Origin: Desulfobacterales bacterium
GTDB taxonomy: Bacteria > Desulfobacterota > Desulfobacteria > Desulfobacterales > SURF-7
DNA: 49,346 nucleotides
Assembly: GCA_018693105.1 (NCBI GenBank)
Contig: JABHLN010000015.1
Coordinates: 1-49,346, forward strand
Reading direction: 5' to 3'
Below the pieces are notes generated by a model, which searched no databases, was not told where the DNA came from, and saw only the letters and a list, made by a program, of their open reading frames with translations. The position numbers and the translations under genes are program-made. Positions 3,441 to 26,435 of this stretch are shown here, in pieces (positions within the stretch are counted from its first letter, which is position 1; every line of letters starts with the position of its first letter).

Positions 3441-5165
3441 CTATCGTTGATAAATAGTTATTCCGCCCACGATTGTTTCCATTACTTTTATTTTATCTAT
3501 AGTTTCAGGATGTTCCAGGGGGTTTTTGTCAATAATTACAAAATCTGCAAGCTTTCCTGATTCAATCGATCCCAGTTTATCGTCGATAAAATGCTGATAT
3601 GCAGAATTAATTGTAACAGCTCTTAGAGCCTCTATGGGAGATATTCTCTCATTTTTACCAATTATATTTCCGCCTGTAGATATCCTGTTGACAGCCGCCC
3701 ATACAAGGCGAAGAGGTTCCATTGGAACAACTGGAGCATCTGTATGAATTGTAAAAATAATATCTTTTTTGATTGCAGAAGCTGCCGGACTCATTCTTGA
3801 CGCCCTTTCAGGTCCCATAAAAATATTCATATGCCTGTCACCCCAATAATATGTGTGAAGGGAATAGAAAGAAGGAACAACTCCAAGCTTTTTCATTAAA
3901 TCCAGCTGATCATCCCTTGCCATCTGGGCATGAATAATAATATGGCGGGTATCTTTTCTGGGAAAATTTTTCTGGGCATTTCCTAAAGCAAACAAAATAT
4001 CATCTATTGCGGCATCTCCGTTTCCGTGAATGGCAATCTGCATGCCCGCCCCGTGGAGAAGCTGAACAAGTCCTGCAAGCTTTTCTCGCGGCATTGCAGG
4101 GTACCCCCTGTAGCTACTGTCTCCATTAAAAGGTTTATGATATGGCTCTTTCAGGTATCCGGTATAGCCCTGGATTGAACCGTCTGCTATAAACTTTATC
4201 GGTCCCTGAATATATCGATTTCGGAAATCCTGGTCCGTATCAGAATTAATTAGGCTCATTTTTTTTTGTTTAACAAGTTTTATACCCACAGGCACCGCCG
4301 GATAAAAAATCATTCGTGTGGTTATAATTTTATTTTTCACAGCCTGTTCAAGGAGCTTTATATCATGCTCCATTGTCATACCATCCTGGGCAGTTGTTAT
4401 GCCCTGGGATGCATATTCCATTGAAGCCTTTTCCAAAGCTTTTAGCTCTTCCTTAACAGGATTTGGAGGCAGGTTCATCAACACCCTGAAAAATGCTGAC
4501 TCTTCCATTACACCGTTCGGTTCACCTGTTTTTTTATTTTTTTGAATAACCCCGCCTGGCGGGTTGGGTGTTTTGTTATCGATTTTTGCTATCTTTAAGG
4601 CCATAGAATTTACCACAGCAAGATGAAAGGATGTATGCATCAATATAATAGGGTGTTTTTCACTCACACTATCAAGATCATAACGTGTGGGATGCCTTAG
4701 TTCTTTAAGCAAGGTATCATCATACCCCATTCCGACAATCCATTTTCCGGCTGGAGCTACCTTTGCTTTTTTCTTCAGTGCTGAAATTATATCCGGGATG
4801 GTTTTTATAGTTCCAATTGGGGGAGGATAAGCCTGAACCATAAAGCTCTTCATTCTTGCCACAAGCTGAAAATGGCTGTGTGCATCAATAAAACCCGGAA
4901 GCATAGTTTTGCCTTTAAGGTCAACTATTAATGAATCCCTGCCGGCAGACTTCCTAAGCCGGTCCTCTATTCCTACAGCTTTGATCAATCCTTCTTCAAC
5001 AAGAACAGCCTCTGCTGAACTATTTTTGTCATCCATTGTGAGAATATTGCCGTTTATATACAATTTGCTTTTGGAAAAACCGCTTGCAGGCAATAAAACA
5101 ACCATGAAAGCTATTAAAATAAAAACAAATAAAGGCAATTTTATGTTTAATGATAACTGTTTCAT
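3441..5165 (-). CDS. YtcJ-like amidohydrolase (amidohydrolase family 3), exported
   Basis: 574 residues. The ATG at 5165 has an AAGGAGA ribosome site. An N-terminal hydrophobic segment (LPLFVFILIAFMVVLLPASG) indicates export, either as a signal peptide or an anchor. Metal-dependent amidohydrolase features are present: the entry motif PGFIDAHSHF near residue 95, then HGNGDAAID, HAQMA and FTIHTDAPV toward the C terminus, and the closing SIESGKLADFVIIDKNP. YtcJ-type enzymes hydrolyse amide, formamide or carbamate bonds; the substrate here is unknown. The gene stands alone between repeat elements. Confidence 0.85.
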   Translation of the reverse strand: MKQLSLNIKLPLFVFILIAFMVVLLPASGFSKSKLYINGNILTMDDKNSSAEAVLVEEGLIKAVGIEDRLRKSAGRDSLIVDLKGKTMLPGFIDAHSHFQLVARMKSFMVQAYPPPIGTIKTIPDIISALKKKAKVAPAGKWIVGMGYDDTLLKELRHPTRYDLDSVSEKHPIILMHTSFHLAVVNSMALKIAKIDNKTPNPPGGVIQKNKKTGEPNGVMEESAFFRVLMNLPPNPVKEELKALEKASMEYASQGITTAQDGMTMEHDIKLLEQAVKNKIITTRMIFYPAVPVGIKLVKQKKMSLINSDTDQDFRNRYIQGPIKFIADGSIQGYTGYLKEPYHKPFNGDSSYRGYPAMPREKLAGLVQLLHGAGMQIAIHGNGDAAIDDILFALGNAQKNFPRKDTRHIIIHAQMARDDQLDLMKKLGVVPSFYSLHTYYWGDRHMNIFMGPERASRMSPAASAIKKDIIFTIHTDAPVVPMEPLRLVWAAVNRISTGGNIIGKNERISPIEALRAVTINSAYQHFIDDKLGSIESGKLADFVIIDKNPLEHPETIDKIKVMETIVGGITIYQR

Positions 5166-19383: not shown

Positions 19384-20100
19384 TTACACCAAACCGGCAG
19401 CAATAAGGGCTTCGGCAAGCAAAAGATCCTCTTTTGTAGTTATCTTGATATTCATCCTGCTACCTTTAACCATTTTTACTTTTGCCCCGGTAAATTCAAC
19501 CAGGGAAGCATCATCTGTACCAAAAAATCCCGCATCTTTTGCATGTTCATGGGCATTTTTTATTACACTGTATCTAAAAGCCTGGGGAGTCTGGGCAAAC
19601 CATATTGAATCTCTTTCTACGGTTTCGAGAATGTCCCCTGAAGTATTAACATTCTTTACAGTATCATAAGAAGGTATTCCTGTAATACAAGCACCTGAAT
19701 TTCTTGCACAGATTATACATGATTCTATAACATCAGATTGTATAAACGGGCGTACCCCGTCATGAATAACAACAATCTCTTCTTCAACATTTGTTTTACC
19801 TGTTGAAGAAGATTTTTCAACAGCCTTGAGACCGTTATAAACAGAACCCTGCCTTTCAACACCTCCCGGAACCAGTTCAACCCTTTTATCAAGTTTGTAT
19901 GGAAGAAGAATTTCAGATTTACAAAACTCAAAATCATCCTCTGGAACAACAAGGTATATCCTGTTTATATTATTATTCTCATGGAAAGTAAGAAGTGTAT
20001 GTGTCAGAACCGGTCTTCCGGCAAGTGAAAGATACTGCTTGCGCAAGCCATGCCCCATTCTGAGTCCTTTACCACCGGCAACAATTATTGCTGAAACCAT
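19384..20100 (-). CDS. ispD: 2-C-methyl-D-erythritol 4-phosphate cytidylyltransferase
   Basis: 238 residues, standard for IspD. The nucleotide-binding signature AIIVAGGKGLRMG is at the N terminus, followed by KQYLSLAGRPVLTHTL. Further signatures are VIHDGVRPFI and ITTKEDLLLAEALI. The enzyme makes CDP-ME in the non-mevalonate isoprenoid pathway. It follows the HPr-fusion gene by 23 bp and is probably co-transcribed with it. Confidence 0.92.
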   Translation of the reverse strand: MVSAIIVAGGKGLRMGHGLRKQYLSLAGRPVLTHTLLTFHENNNINRIYLVVPEDDFEFCKSEILLPYKLDKRVELVPGGVERQGSVYNGLKAVEKSSSTGKTNVEEEIVVIHDGVRPFIQSDVIESCIICARNSGACITGIPSYDTVKNVNTSGDILETVERDSIWFAQTPQAFRYSVIKNAHEHAKDAGFFGTDDASLVEFTGAKVKMVKGSRMNIKITTKEDLLLAEALIAAGLV

Positions 20101-20123: not shown

Positions 20124-21428
20124 TTATTTAAGGTATTTTAGCTCTTTTGGAAATGGAACCCCTTTACCCATTGTGTCTTCACCGTAGTTTACGCTTGCAA
20201 GTATTTCAATATCGCTTAGGGACCTGACATCACCTTCAAATACAACATGTTTTATGTTCTCTTTCTGAATCAATCCCCCGGCCCATTGTATGTCCAGAAC
20301 ACTGCTGGCATCAAACCTCTTTTCACCAACGCACATTTCCACCTGTCCTCCATAGTACTGCACAATCTTTGCAACAAGAAGGCTGGGCCTGCTGTGGAAA
20401 CCAAGTTTAACCGGAATCCTTACTTTTATAGATGAACGTTCGATGTTCTCGTTAAGGATATCAGATGCAAGCTCCCTTCCTTCTGAAAAGAAATGGCATG
20501 CATAGTAGAAACCATAGTTAATTGTGCGCTCTAGTAAAACATCAGTATTAATATGGGAATCAAGCCTGTCACCGGCTTTTTTGTAAACACTCTTATATCC
20601 CCTTTCAAGTAGATGCCGTTCATAAAAATGAAGGAGACGCCCGACTATTTCAAGAACATGAAATACAACAGAAAAATAGCTTCTAAGCTGTTTTAGTTTT
20701 CGATTTCCAAACCTGTAACCCCCATGAATAGCATATGTATCAAAAGACGATTGGAGATTATGTACAAGCATCTCAAACCCTCTTACTTCAACCTCATTTA
20801 TCTTGTCAGGCACTATTTCTTTTATTTCTTCAATGGTATACGGCTCATAAAACCCAAACTGTTCAAAGGTCTTTGCAACCCCGAGAAATTCACTGGCGAT
20901 CTTTACGATATTTTTTTTCTGCTGAATTTTGTCTTCGTCATCAATATCATACTCCAGCATTTCTCCGCTTATTACACCTGGGAAAAGATCCTGGTCATAA
21001 TTACCTTCAGGAATTGGAATTTTCAGCCGCCTTGCCTCTTCAAGGATTGTGGGCGCAAGAGACATTATAGCGTTAGTTAAAAACTCCTGCGTTACTTCCC
21101 CTTCTTTCCCAAACTCAGCTGAATCCGGTATATCATAAAACGAAAGCCTGTTAAGCAGATGCCTCTGGGAATACCCGGCAAGGCTCAAATGCCTTACTGC
21201 AGCTGACAACTCCCTGTATAAGTACCAGTTTTTATTATTTTTTGCTCCGTGAAAATCCAAAAAATCTTCAAGAAGCTGTGAAGAGGATATTAGTTTTGAA
21301 TACAATTTTTTGGTAAAAATATACTTGGGAGTATCAAATGATGAAATGTATATACAACTCTTAAGTAAATCGTGTGAATAAATTCTTACCTTTTCGGAAA
21401 AGGATATATCACATACACTAAACTCCAT
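20124..21428 (-). CDS. Large HPr-domain fusion protein with a novel helical N-terminal region
   Basis: 434 residues from the ATG at 21428, which has GAGAGG just upstream. Residues about 334-434 are an HPr phosphocarrier domain with the active His345 in KLGFHSRPSLLVA and a serine-site-like segment FDASSVLDIQWAGG (Ser376). The first 330 residues are mostly helical and charged and match no domain I recognise. Normal HPr is about 85 residues and acts in the PTS; no other PTS gene lies in this window. The fusion may work as a phosphorylation-controlled regulator. It lies between rnpB and ispD. Confidence 0.75.
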   Translation of the reverse strand: MEFSVCDISFSEKVRIYSHDLLKSCIYISSFDTPKYIFTKKLYSKLISSSQLLEDFLDFHGAKNNKNWYLYRELSAAVRHLSLAGYSQRHLLNRLSFYDIPDSAEFGKEGEVTQEFLTNAIMSLAPTILEEARRLKIPIPEGNYDQDLFPGVISGEMLEYDIDDEDKIQQKKNIVKIASEFLGVAKTFEQFGFYEPYTIEEIKEIVPDKINEVEVRGFEMLVHNLQSSFDTYAIHGGYRFGNRKLKQLRSYFSVVFHVLEIVGRLLHFYERHLLERGYKSVYKKAGDRLDSHINTDVLLERTINYGFYYACHFFSEGRELASDILNENIERSSIKVRIPVKLGFHSRPSLLVAKIVQYYGGQVEMCVGEKRFDASSVLDIQWAGGLIQKENIKHVVFEGDVRSLSDIEILASVNYGEDTMGKGVPFPKELKYLK

Positions 21429-21577
21429 GTTTCCTCTCAAAATTATCTTCAGATCTTTGCTTAGCAGCCTTTTTGTCTATTTTTTGCTAAATCACACCAT
21501 AACGTGATTTCCATATCTTGAATTTAAACATAAATTCATATTTTCAAGGCTTCCATGTAACAACATGCTAAAAAAAA

Positions 21578-21960
21578 GCGGCTAAAGTAGCCAGTAAGCC
21601 GAATTCTGTGTCCTGTACCGGTTACCCGAAACAGGATAACGATCATTCATCTAGGGTGCCGGTTGCCCGACACCTCACGCAACCTACCCGGGAACTCAGA
21701 CGAGCAGCCTTAAACGTTCCCCTATTTGGTCTTGCACCAGGTGGGGTTTACAAAGCTTCCCCGGTCACCCGGGAAACTGGTGCGCTCTTACCGCACCTTT
21801 TCACCCTTACCGGGCATTTCTGCCAGGCGGTATTCTTTCTGTTGCACTTTCCTTCACGTTGCCGTGACTCCACGTTATGGAGCACCCTGCCCTGTGGTGT
21901 TCGGACTTTCCTCCGAATCATTTAAAATGATTCCGCGATCGTTTTGTCTACTACAGCCGC
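21578..21960 (-). ncRNA. rnpB: RNase P RNA (bacterial type A)
   Basis: 383 nt. Read on the minus strand it has the universal core motifs: GGAGGAAAGTCCGAACACC near the 5' end, GGTAAGGGTGAAAAGGTGCG then GGTAAGAGCGCACC, the CCAAATAGGGGAAC segment, CCTAGATGAATGATCG, and ATTCGGCTTACTGGC at the 3' end. The terminal stem pairs GCGGCTGTAGTAG with the final CTACTTTAGCCGC. A candidate -10 (TAATAT, 21976-21971) lies at the end of the upstream zinc-ribbon gene. It is the catalytic RNA that removes tRNA 5' leaders. Confidence 0.97.
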
Positions 21961-24289: not shown

Positions 24290-26407
24290 CTATGTTTCTA
24301 TAAAACTCTTAAGCTTTTTACTTCTAGTAGGATGCCTGAGTTTTCTTAAAGCCTTTGCTTCTATCTGTCTGATACGCTCACGTGTTACAGCAAAATCCTT
24401 ACCAACCTCTTCTAGCGTATGATCTGCCTTTTCCCCGATCCCAAATCTCATACGCAACACTTTCTCTTCACGTGGGGTCAATGTTGCAAGAACTTTTCTT
24501 GTCTGCTCTGCAAGATTCATACTTATAGCAGCATCTGTCGGAAGTACAAATTTTTTGTCTTCAATAAAATCACCCAGATGGCTGTCCTCTTCCTCCCCAA
24601 TAGGAGTCTCAAGAGAAATCGGCTCTCTTGCAATTTTTAAAACCCTACGCACCTTGTCCAGAGGAATTTCCATTTTCTGAGCTATCTCTTCAGGTGAAGG
24701 CTCTCGCCCAAGCTCCTGGACAAGATACCTAGAAGTTCTAATAAGTTTATTTATAGTTTCTATCATATGAACAGGTATGCGGATTGTTCTTGCCTGATCC
24801 GCAATAGCCCTTGTGATTGCCTGTCTTATCCACCAGGTAGCATATGTGCTGAACTTATATCCCCTACGGTATTCAAACTTATCAACAGCTTTCATAAGGC
24901 CGATATTACCCTCCTGGATTAAATCCAGAAACTGCAGGCCACGGTTGGTATATTTTTTTGCTATACTGACAACAAGGCGTAAGTTTGCTTTTATTAACTC
25001 ACTCTTGGCACGTTTTGCATGATACCGACCTTCTCCAACATTTTTCATTATTCTTTTCAGGCTTCGGGAGTTGGCTTTTATTGCAATCTCCCTTTCAACT
25101 AACTGTCTTTGAATTTCCTTTGCATCAGAATAAATAATCGCCAGATCTTTCTTTGCCAGATCTGAACGTTCATGAGCCCATTTTATAAACTGATCTTTTT
25201 TTGTCATACATGATCGGAATTCAGACACTTGTGAATTAAACACAGCGGCACAGTCAGTTATCACATCATCCATGGCATCAAACCAGTATATCTGGTCTCT
25301 GATTTTTTTTTCAACCCTGTCGATAACTCCTATCTCAAAGCGCCACTCCTTGAGTAGTTCAAAGATCTTGGTGTTTCTACGATTTATAGATCTTCTTATC
25401 TTGCGCTGTTCTTCCAGACCAATTGCTGATAAAAATAGTTTTTCCCTGTAGTCCCAGTTTTCATCATCAAGGGTTTTTATCTCACGAATAGTTTTGATAA
25501 ATTTTTCTATTTGAAAAACTTCATCTACAAAAGCATCACCCTCATCAATATCTCTTAAAATATTTTTTGGGCGAATGTTGCCGACCTGAATATTATCTCC
25601 CAGGGCTATAATACTTTCAACCCCGATAGTTGTACCAAGCATTGCCTTAAGGACTTCCTGCTCTCCCACTTCAATTTTTTTTGCTATCTCAATTTCCCCT
25701 TCACGGCTAAGAAGTGTAACAAGCCCCATTTCCCTCAAATACATCTTGACAGGGTCAGTTACCGCTCCAAAATCAGCAGCAGAAATTTCAATACCGGAAC
25801 TCTTTTTATCCTCAGACTTATCGCCTTTCTTTTTCTGTCCTTCCTCAATCTTGATGTTCATTTCACTGAACATCATAAGGGTTTCTTCAACCTGATCAGG
25901 TATTAGCATATCATCAGGAAGCACCTTATTAATCTCGTCATAGGTTAAAAAACCCTCTTTTTTTCCTTTTTTTACAAGCTTTTCAAAATCTTTGTTAGTT
26001 TTTGCTTTTTTTGCCTCAGCACTTTGTTTATTCAGAGCTGCTTTTTTTTTGGCTTTTTCTCCCTTTGTTTTTTCAGCGGAAGCCGCAACTTTTTTTGTCT
26101 TAGAATCTTTTTTTACCTTAGATTCTTTTTTTACCTTAGATTCTTTTTTTGCCTTAGATTCTTTTTTTGCCTTAGACTCTTTTTTTGCCTTAGACTCTTT
26201 TTTTGCCTTAGACTCTTTTTTTGCCTTAGATTCTTTTTTTACCTTAGAATCTTTTTTTGTCTTAGATTCTTTTTTTACCTTAGAATCTTTTTTTGTCTTA
26301 GATTCTTTTTTTGTCTTAGATTCTTTTTTTGCCTTAGATTCTTTTTTTGTCTTAGAAACTTTTTTTGTCTTAGATTCTTTTTTTATCTTAGAAACTTTTT
26401 TTGCCAT
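24290..26407 (-). CDS. rpoD: Primary sigma factor RpoD (sigma-70) with lysine-rich hexapeptide-repeat N terminus
   Basis: 705 residues. The ATG at 26407 has an excellent ribosome site (AGGAGGT), so the repeat is translated. Residues about 3-107 are roughly 17 copies of a six-residue unit, consensus xKKESK with x = A, T or V. Region 1.1 follows ([15 protein letters not shown]), then region 1.2 ([20 protein letters not shown]), a non-conserved spacer, region 2 ([35 protein letters not shown]), region 3, and region 4 ([36 protein letters not shown]). It directs most transcription. It follows dnaG as in macromolecular synthesis operons, separated here by a MITE-like element. Confidence 0.97.
26089..26407 (-). 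repeat. 18-bp tandem repeat inside rpoD
   Basis: About 17 consecutive 18-bp units, each containing a run of seven A (coding strand). They encode the basic hexapeptide repeat at the sigma factor's N terminus. Codon-level variation occurs at the first position of the hexapeptide (Ala, Thr, Val, Ile) and at Glu/Asp. Such arrays change copy number easily. Confidence 0.95.
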
Positions 26408-26435
26408 AGAGATTGACCTCCTGCGAACTCCAGTA

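Follow-up and report, generated by a model that had tools for sequence, protein, structure and literature searches.

What does an HPr phosphocarrier domain do at the end of a much larger protein, behind some 330 helical residues that belong to no recognised family? The question is raised by a gene on a contig of a Desulfobacterales bacterium that was analysed over its whole length of 49,346 nucleotides (hereafter, the window). The gene lies on the minus strand at 20124..21428, with its ATG at 21428, its stop codon at 20124-20126 and a Shine-Dalgarno-like GAGAGG (21433..21438, minus strand, read off the sequence) just upstream of the start, and it encodes 434 amino acids, as against the ~85-90 residues of a single-domain HPr phosphocarrier. 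The first-pass annotation had called an open reading frame at exactly this place, within an interval bounded by rnpB and ispD, and both calls stand: the class A RNase P RNA gene rnpB (21580..21954, minus strand) lies upstream, and an ispD-like gene (19384..20100, minus strand, named by reading the sequence) follows directly downstream.

By profile matches and comparison of a predicted model with solved structures, the C-terminal domain (residues 331-416; 20181..20438, minus strand) is an HPr fold, as initially annotated. The window protein matches Pfam PF00381, its sole Pfam match, at E 0.0036 and 17.8 bits (20.8 bits for the isolated domain; Pfam cut-off 23), and NCBIfam TIGR01003 at 21.2 bits, below the curated cut-off of 47.9. 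Because it scores under the Pfam cut-off, a genome-wide HPr profile search reports only the other HPr of this genome. At the level of the family the assignment is firmer, with PF00381 (best E 9.6e-9) and TIGR01003 (best E 8.4e-10) each matched by all 25 aligned members, whose Pfam matches include neither an EIIA nor an EI family. A profile built from the family reaches solved HPr chains at E 1.7e-6, and superposing the AlphaFold model on the HPr chain 3lfg_B gives Z 10.9 and an rmsd of 2.4 over 85 aligned residues.

Residue conservation was counted over 84 distinct homologues (out of 94 loci), all 400 amino acids or longer, which were picked by BLAST and reach down to 28% identity to the window protein; nine further sequences, picked by a pattern demanding His, Arg, Pro and YGE, were not used for those residues. 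Within the motif FHSRPS, to which the early annotation had pointed, His345 (20394..20396, minus strand) aligns with the active-site His15 of HPr chains and is invariant (84/84), as are Arg347 and Pro348. The serine-site-like segment read at that stage likewise holds up, with Ser376 (20301..20303, minus strand) at the position of HPr Ser46 (Ser in 81/84, Asn in 3/84), and K354, at the position of HPr Lys24, is Lys in 79 sequences and Arg in five. Residue 379 is acidic (Asp or Glu) in 79 of the 84 homologues, being Asp379 in the window protein; E. coli HPr carries Lys49 at the matching position, and the acidic residue in its place might weaken docking to EI. Beyond the HPr domain, a short tail (residues 417-434; 20127..20180, minus strand) keeps E417, G421, P427 and L433 in every sequence. 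Could the domain then be a repurposed HPr module, not phosphorylated by EI and acting as a fixed protein-binding or structural unit? The missed cut-offs of both databases and the existence of carriers without detectable EI (see below) would suit such a module, but His345 and Arg347 are retained throughout the 84 homologues, down to 28% identity, which would be unexpected of a purely structural domain, and we consider this explanation unlikely.

The ~330 N-terminal residues had been described at the outset as helical and resembling nothing known, a description that both structural models and profile searches support. AlphaFold returned confident models for the whole fusion protein (pLDDT 85.8, pTM 0.83) and for residues 1-330 alone (pLDDT 86.7, pTM 0.88), in which this region is all-helical and folds as two bundles, at about residues 10-134 (21027..21401, minus strand) and 167-328 (20445..20930, minus strand). 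No family was matched by the helical region among the Pfam, NCBIfam, PHROG and PADLOC profiles, and in fold searches against the PDB and viral models nothing reached an E value of 0.001. VIA-align recovered designed or generic bundles only, the highest Z being 11.4 (rmsd 3.7, 137 aligned) for the helical part of the whole-protein model and 10.0 (rmsd 4.3, 135 aligned) for the region alone, both values lying within the tool's stated background for helical proteins. Fold prediction and fold search, which had been proposed as a check, hence assigned the N-terminus to no characterised family, a result that does not by itself establish a new fold. Weak, unrelated matches of single members among the 25 (e.g., hydroxypyruvate isomerase, E 0.0035) were taken as chance, while PhoU and HPt, both considered on the basis of their motifs, had no Pfam match in the 25 members.

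One named domain did surface in these comparisons. Chlorobium CHAD proteins (6qva, 6qv7, and 3e0s) ranked high in the Foldseek results (6qva at probability 0.89), where few other cytosolic bacterial proteins did, and tandem bundles with conserved His and Arg are CHAD-like in outline, which raised the idea of a polyphosphate-binding domain under HPr control. Against it, the same 6qva match had an E value of 0.08 and an rmsd of 17.9; its superpositions on the whole model (Z 8.0, rmsd 4.5, 142 aligned) and on the helical region alone (Z 7.3, rmsd 4.4, 141 aligned) fell in the range of unrelated bundles, no better than generic ones; profile-profile comparison with a four-sequence CHAD alignment gave a probability of 3%; and the CHAD family PF05235 was absent from the matches of the 25 members. 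With the profile comparison failed and the Z scores within the helical background, the CHAD/polyphosphate assignment was dropped, and we hold it to be very improbable.

What marks out the helical region is its conservation. Ten of its residues (E54, D58, W68, E73, P207, H223, S227, D230, R249, and H267) are each identical in 84/84 sequences, and all but P207 fall into a motif E54-xxx-D58 ... W68 ... E73 at a turn of bundle 1 (21210..21269, minus strand), a segment H223-N-L-Q-S227-x-x-D230 in helix 2 of bundle 2 (20739..20762, minus strand), and a pattern R249-x7-H257-x9-H267-x3-R271 in helix 3 of bundle 2 (20616..20684, minus strand), of which H257 is kept in 82/84 and R271 in 83/84. The spacing of the last pattern recurs in helix 3 of bundle 1 as R72-x7-H80-x9-H90-x3-R94 (21147..21215, minus strand), at an offset of 177 residues that also pairs S50 with S227; this offset gives five matches versus three for the next best among 160 offsets compared. 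Such a recurrence suggests that the two bundles may have arisen by tandem duplication, while a profile-profile alignment of bundle 1 with bundle 2 was not significant (P 0.02-0.04, with a reversed-sequence control reaching 0.007). Judged from their spacing, the conserved residues would share one face of helix 3, with an acidic or polar face on helix 2.

Two invariant histidines in bundle 2 invite a further explanation, namely that phosphate passes internally from His345 to H223 or H267 in the manner of an HPt domain. Besides the invariance of both residues, the up-and-down four-helix arrangement of bundle 2, best matched by designed bundles, would be in keeping with such a relay, and the H-N-L-Q-S segment bears a faint resemblance to H-boxes. 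Yet no HPt or histidine-kinase family was matched in Pfam, and the placement of the invariant residues with Asp and Arg on one helix face, as deduced from spacing, points to a buried site more than to an exposed acceptor, so that we rate an internal relay as quite improbable.

The fusion is widespread among close relatives. In the near-relative set (Desulfobacterales), 55 of 59 genomes have a match and 54 carry the family, the remaining genome (G058) not being counted, as its match is confined to HPr. A sample of 297 genomes from the phylum yielded 33 with a match and 29 carriers, with G132, G212, G243, and G302 not counted for short or HPr-only matches. When only the helical region was used as a profile, it was found in 38 of 395 genomes, once in each; the open frames span 429-539 residues, apart from one fragment of 290, and we infer that in this sample the region is always joined to HPr. 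The gene is single-copy, and in homologues the order of domains is fixed, with the helical region preceding HPr. Carriers on named contigs are metagenome-assembled genomes labelled Desulfobacterales, Desulfobacteraceae, or less precisely. Outside Desulfobacterales the distribution is patchy, seven listed f100-family genomes having a full-length gene and many lacking it, and the viral contigs and plasmids searched contained no relative.

The surroundings of the gene are conserved within the order. Among 67 order-level loci, 62 have an ispD gene no more than 350 nt downstream, and rnpB sits no farther than 2.5 kb upstream at 35 of 36 such loci. At 16 distant loci, neither gene adjoins the fusion gene (0/16 for each), and outside Desulfobacterales it has no fixed neighbours. 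Because the ispD linkage holds in 62/67 order-level loci but in 0/16 distant ones, it probably represents order-level synteny rather than function. At about 15 order-level loci (e.g., L036 3992-5910 and L053 4074-5992), a pair of SufC/SufD-like genes, identified by reading the sequence, sits between rnpB and the fusion gene; others are without it. In a distant genome, G189 (L076 3445-6487), a homologue of 30% identity lies 30 bp upstream of rapZ, which is followed by a GlmU-like open reading frame. As a general association, rapZ linkage was rejected, having been seen only in L076 and L126 (one gene) among 117 loci, some of them duplicated, and being absent from G448 of the same genus. Elsewhere in the window, the 5' end of an rpoD-like gene (24290-26407, minus strand) contains ~18 copies of an 18-bp repeat (26089-26410) that encode a Lys-rich N-terminal extension.

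The fusion protein was also compared with other products of its loci. Its mean identity to the window protein was 66.6% (29 named-contig loci), where IspD reached 51.1% (26 loci) and RpoD 69.6% (15 loci), and in 26/26 loci the fusion protein was better conserved than the adjacent IspD. Comparisons A1 and A3 covered 26 of the 29 named-contig loci, leaving out L042, L050, and L051 (the last two truncated), and comparison A2 covered 24 of the 94 loci.

If His345 is to be phosphorylated, the cell needs the upstream enzymes. The first-pass annotation had noted that the window holds no gene for EI, EII, or HPr kinase, and reading the list of open reading frames agrees; EI is missing from the window because its gene sits on another contig. 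The genome, rated 91.8% complete, does encode EI, the point that the annotation had wanted checked, along with HPr and EIIA genes, all on other contigs. Contig C2 has one complete EI open reading frame of 589 amino acids with a stand-alone HPr gene upstream on the same strand (L096, ~4591-4830, minus strand), whose product reads GIHARSAA, with Ser in place of the Pro that normally follows the active-site Arg. Since a stand-alone HPr coexists with it, the fusion protein is not simply the HPr of this cell. A second PEP-utiliser open reading frame, of 884 amino acids, probably encodes PPDK, to judge from its sequence. On contig C115 the gene order is kdsA, kdsC, lptC, lptA, lptB, rpoN, hpf, ptsN, rapZ, an EIIA-Man-like gene, GNAT, gapA, tpiA, and secG (names by reading the sequence; ptsN confirmed by PF00359), and contig C94 encodes a second EIIA-Ntr/Fru-type protein (PTS_EIIA_2; L105 5504-5974), bringing the EIIA complement to two EIIA-Ntr/Fru-type proteins and one EIIA-Man-like protein. 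The C94 gene adjoins two antiporter-like membrane open reading frames and a small PII-like one (all named by reading), a neighbourhood that is possibly a PTS-controlled transporter. From the gene neighbourhoods read, the PTS of the host appears to be transport-poor. A search of the host genome for HPr kinase gave no match, though the control missed B. subtilis (which has hprK), leaving its sensitivity in doubt; across the 59 relatives, under the same doubt about sensitivity, matches spanned only ~50 residues of the model's 171 positions, and one of the 59 exceeded the cut-off.

How closely does the fusion protein follow EI? In the phylum sample, EI occurs in 29/29 carriers of the family, but this co-occurrence is uninformative because EI is common in the phylum (277/297 genomes); by a hand estimate, there was a ~13% chance of all 29 carriers having it. 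Among the near relatives, EI was detectable in 49 of the 54 carriers, and two of the five without it are assemblies 96% and 97% complete.

These PTS genes also bear on a simpler role, in which the fusion protein is a large phosphocarrier, an alternative HPr or NPr that accepts phosphate from EI and delivers it to PtsN (EIIA-Ntr) or to the EIIA-Man-like protein, its helical part serving only to gate or localise the transfer. An intact His/Arg site and, as candidate acceptors, two EIIA-Ntr/Fru-type proteins along with an EIIA-Man-like one would allow this, but a stand-alone HPr already adjoins ptsI, and helical residues kept invariant across the order suggest a role beyond that of a linker; we therefore regard a mere carrier role as rather unlikely.

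Known systems resemble the protein in part. With HPr and NPr (PtsH and PtsO; PF00381, TIGR01003) it shares the fold, the active-site His and Arg and, in 81/84 homologues, the Ser46 equivalent, and it differs in that HPr stands behind ~330 helical residues and is followed by a conserved tail of ~18 residues, in its sub-cut-off scores, and in having a separate HPr in the genome. Multiphosphoryl transfer proteins of the FPr/DhaM type (EIIA-HPr and EIIA-HPr-EI), described in PMC2405797, also embed HPr in a larger protein, but there its partners are PTS domains such as EIIA and EI, whereas the partner here is none by profile search. The nitrogen PTS (PtsP-PtsO-PtsN; PMC13104625) is, like that of the host, a regulatory PTS with a gene set near rpoN, whereas its PtsO/NPr is small and single-domain, and the portion of that paper available mentions no fused helical domain. 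Among open-licence PMC papers, we found no description of HPr fused to a non-PTS orphan helical region, and PTS terms are absent from the main text of PMC11887813 and PMC5109826. HPr fusion as such is known, and its fusion to an order-wide orphan helical region appears undescribed in the open-licence PMC papers searched.

The early annotation had offered two possibilities, a regulator that reads PTS phosphorylation or a domain repurposed for another phosphate relay; the first fits better and is partly supported by the invariant His345, Arg347, and Pro348 and by the regulatory-type PTS in the genome, the relay less so. We give about an even chance to the fusion protein being a soluble regulator that acts in a regulatory, transport-poor PTS and that probably senses the energy and carbon state of the cell. 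EI, either directly or via the separate HPr, would transfer phosphate from PEP to His345; whether this histidine is phosphorylated would alter how HPr packs against the helical region or the C-terminal tail; and the altered packing would switch binding of the helical region to a ligand or partner protein. Least certain among these steps, the invariant Asp, Glu, His, and Arg stripes of both bundles may form the lining of a site that binds a metal or an anionic, phosphate-bearing ligand. The net effect would be to pass the PEP/pyruvate state to a target. We favour this PTS-regulator reading because His345 and Arg347 are intact, the domain has an HPr fold, regulatory PTS genes are present, and helical residues are invariant, and it is weakened because five near-relative carriers are without detectable EI and residue 379 is acidic. 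More tentatively, the helical region might be a new sensor or effector domain, perhaps born of bundle duplication and fused only to HPr, making the protein a single-copy PTS output, more strongly constrained than the adjacent ispD, that couples the PEP/pyruvate state via His345 to a core process of the Desulfobacterales and of some phylum members beyond that order.

Sulfate reducers of the Desulfobacterales live mainly on organic acids. One species, Desulfotignum phosphitoxidans, is reported to take up hexoses by a PTS (PMC4046663). Desulfobacterales commonly keep genes for EI, HPr, and EIIA, and an order-wide, single-copy fusion of HPr to an orphan region makes an obvious candidate output for that PTS. 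Two of the carriers match the cultured Desulfococcus multivorans and Desulfobacca acetoxidans, which opens the fusion protein to direct testing.
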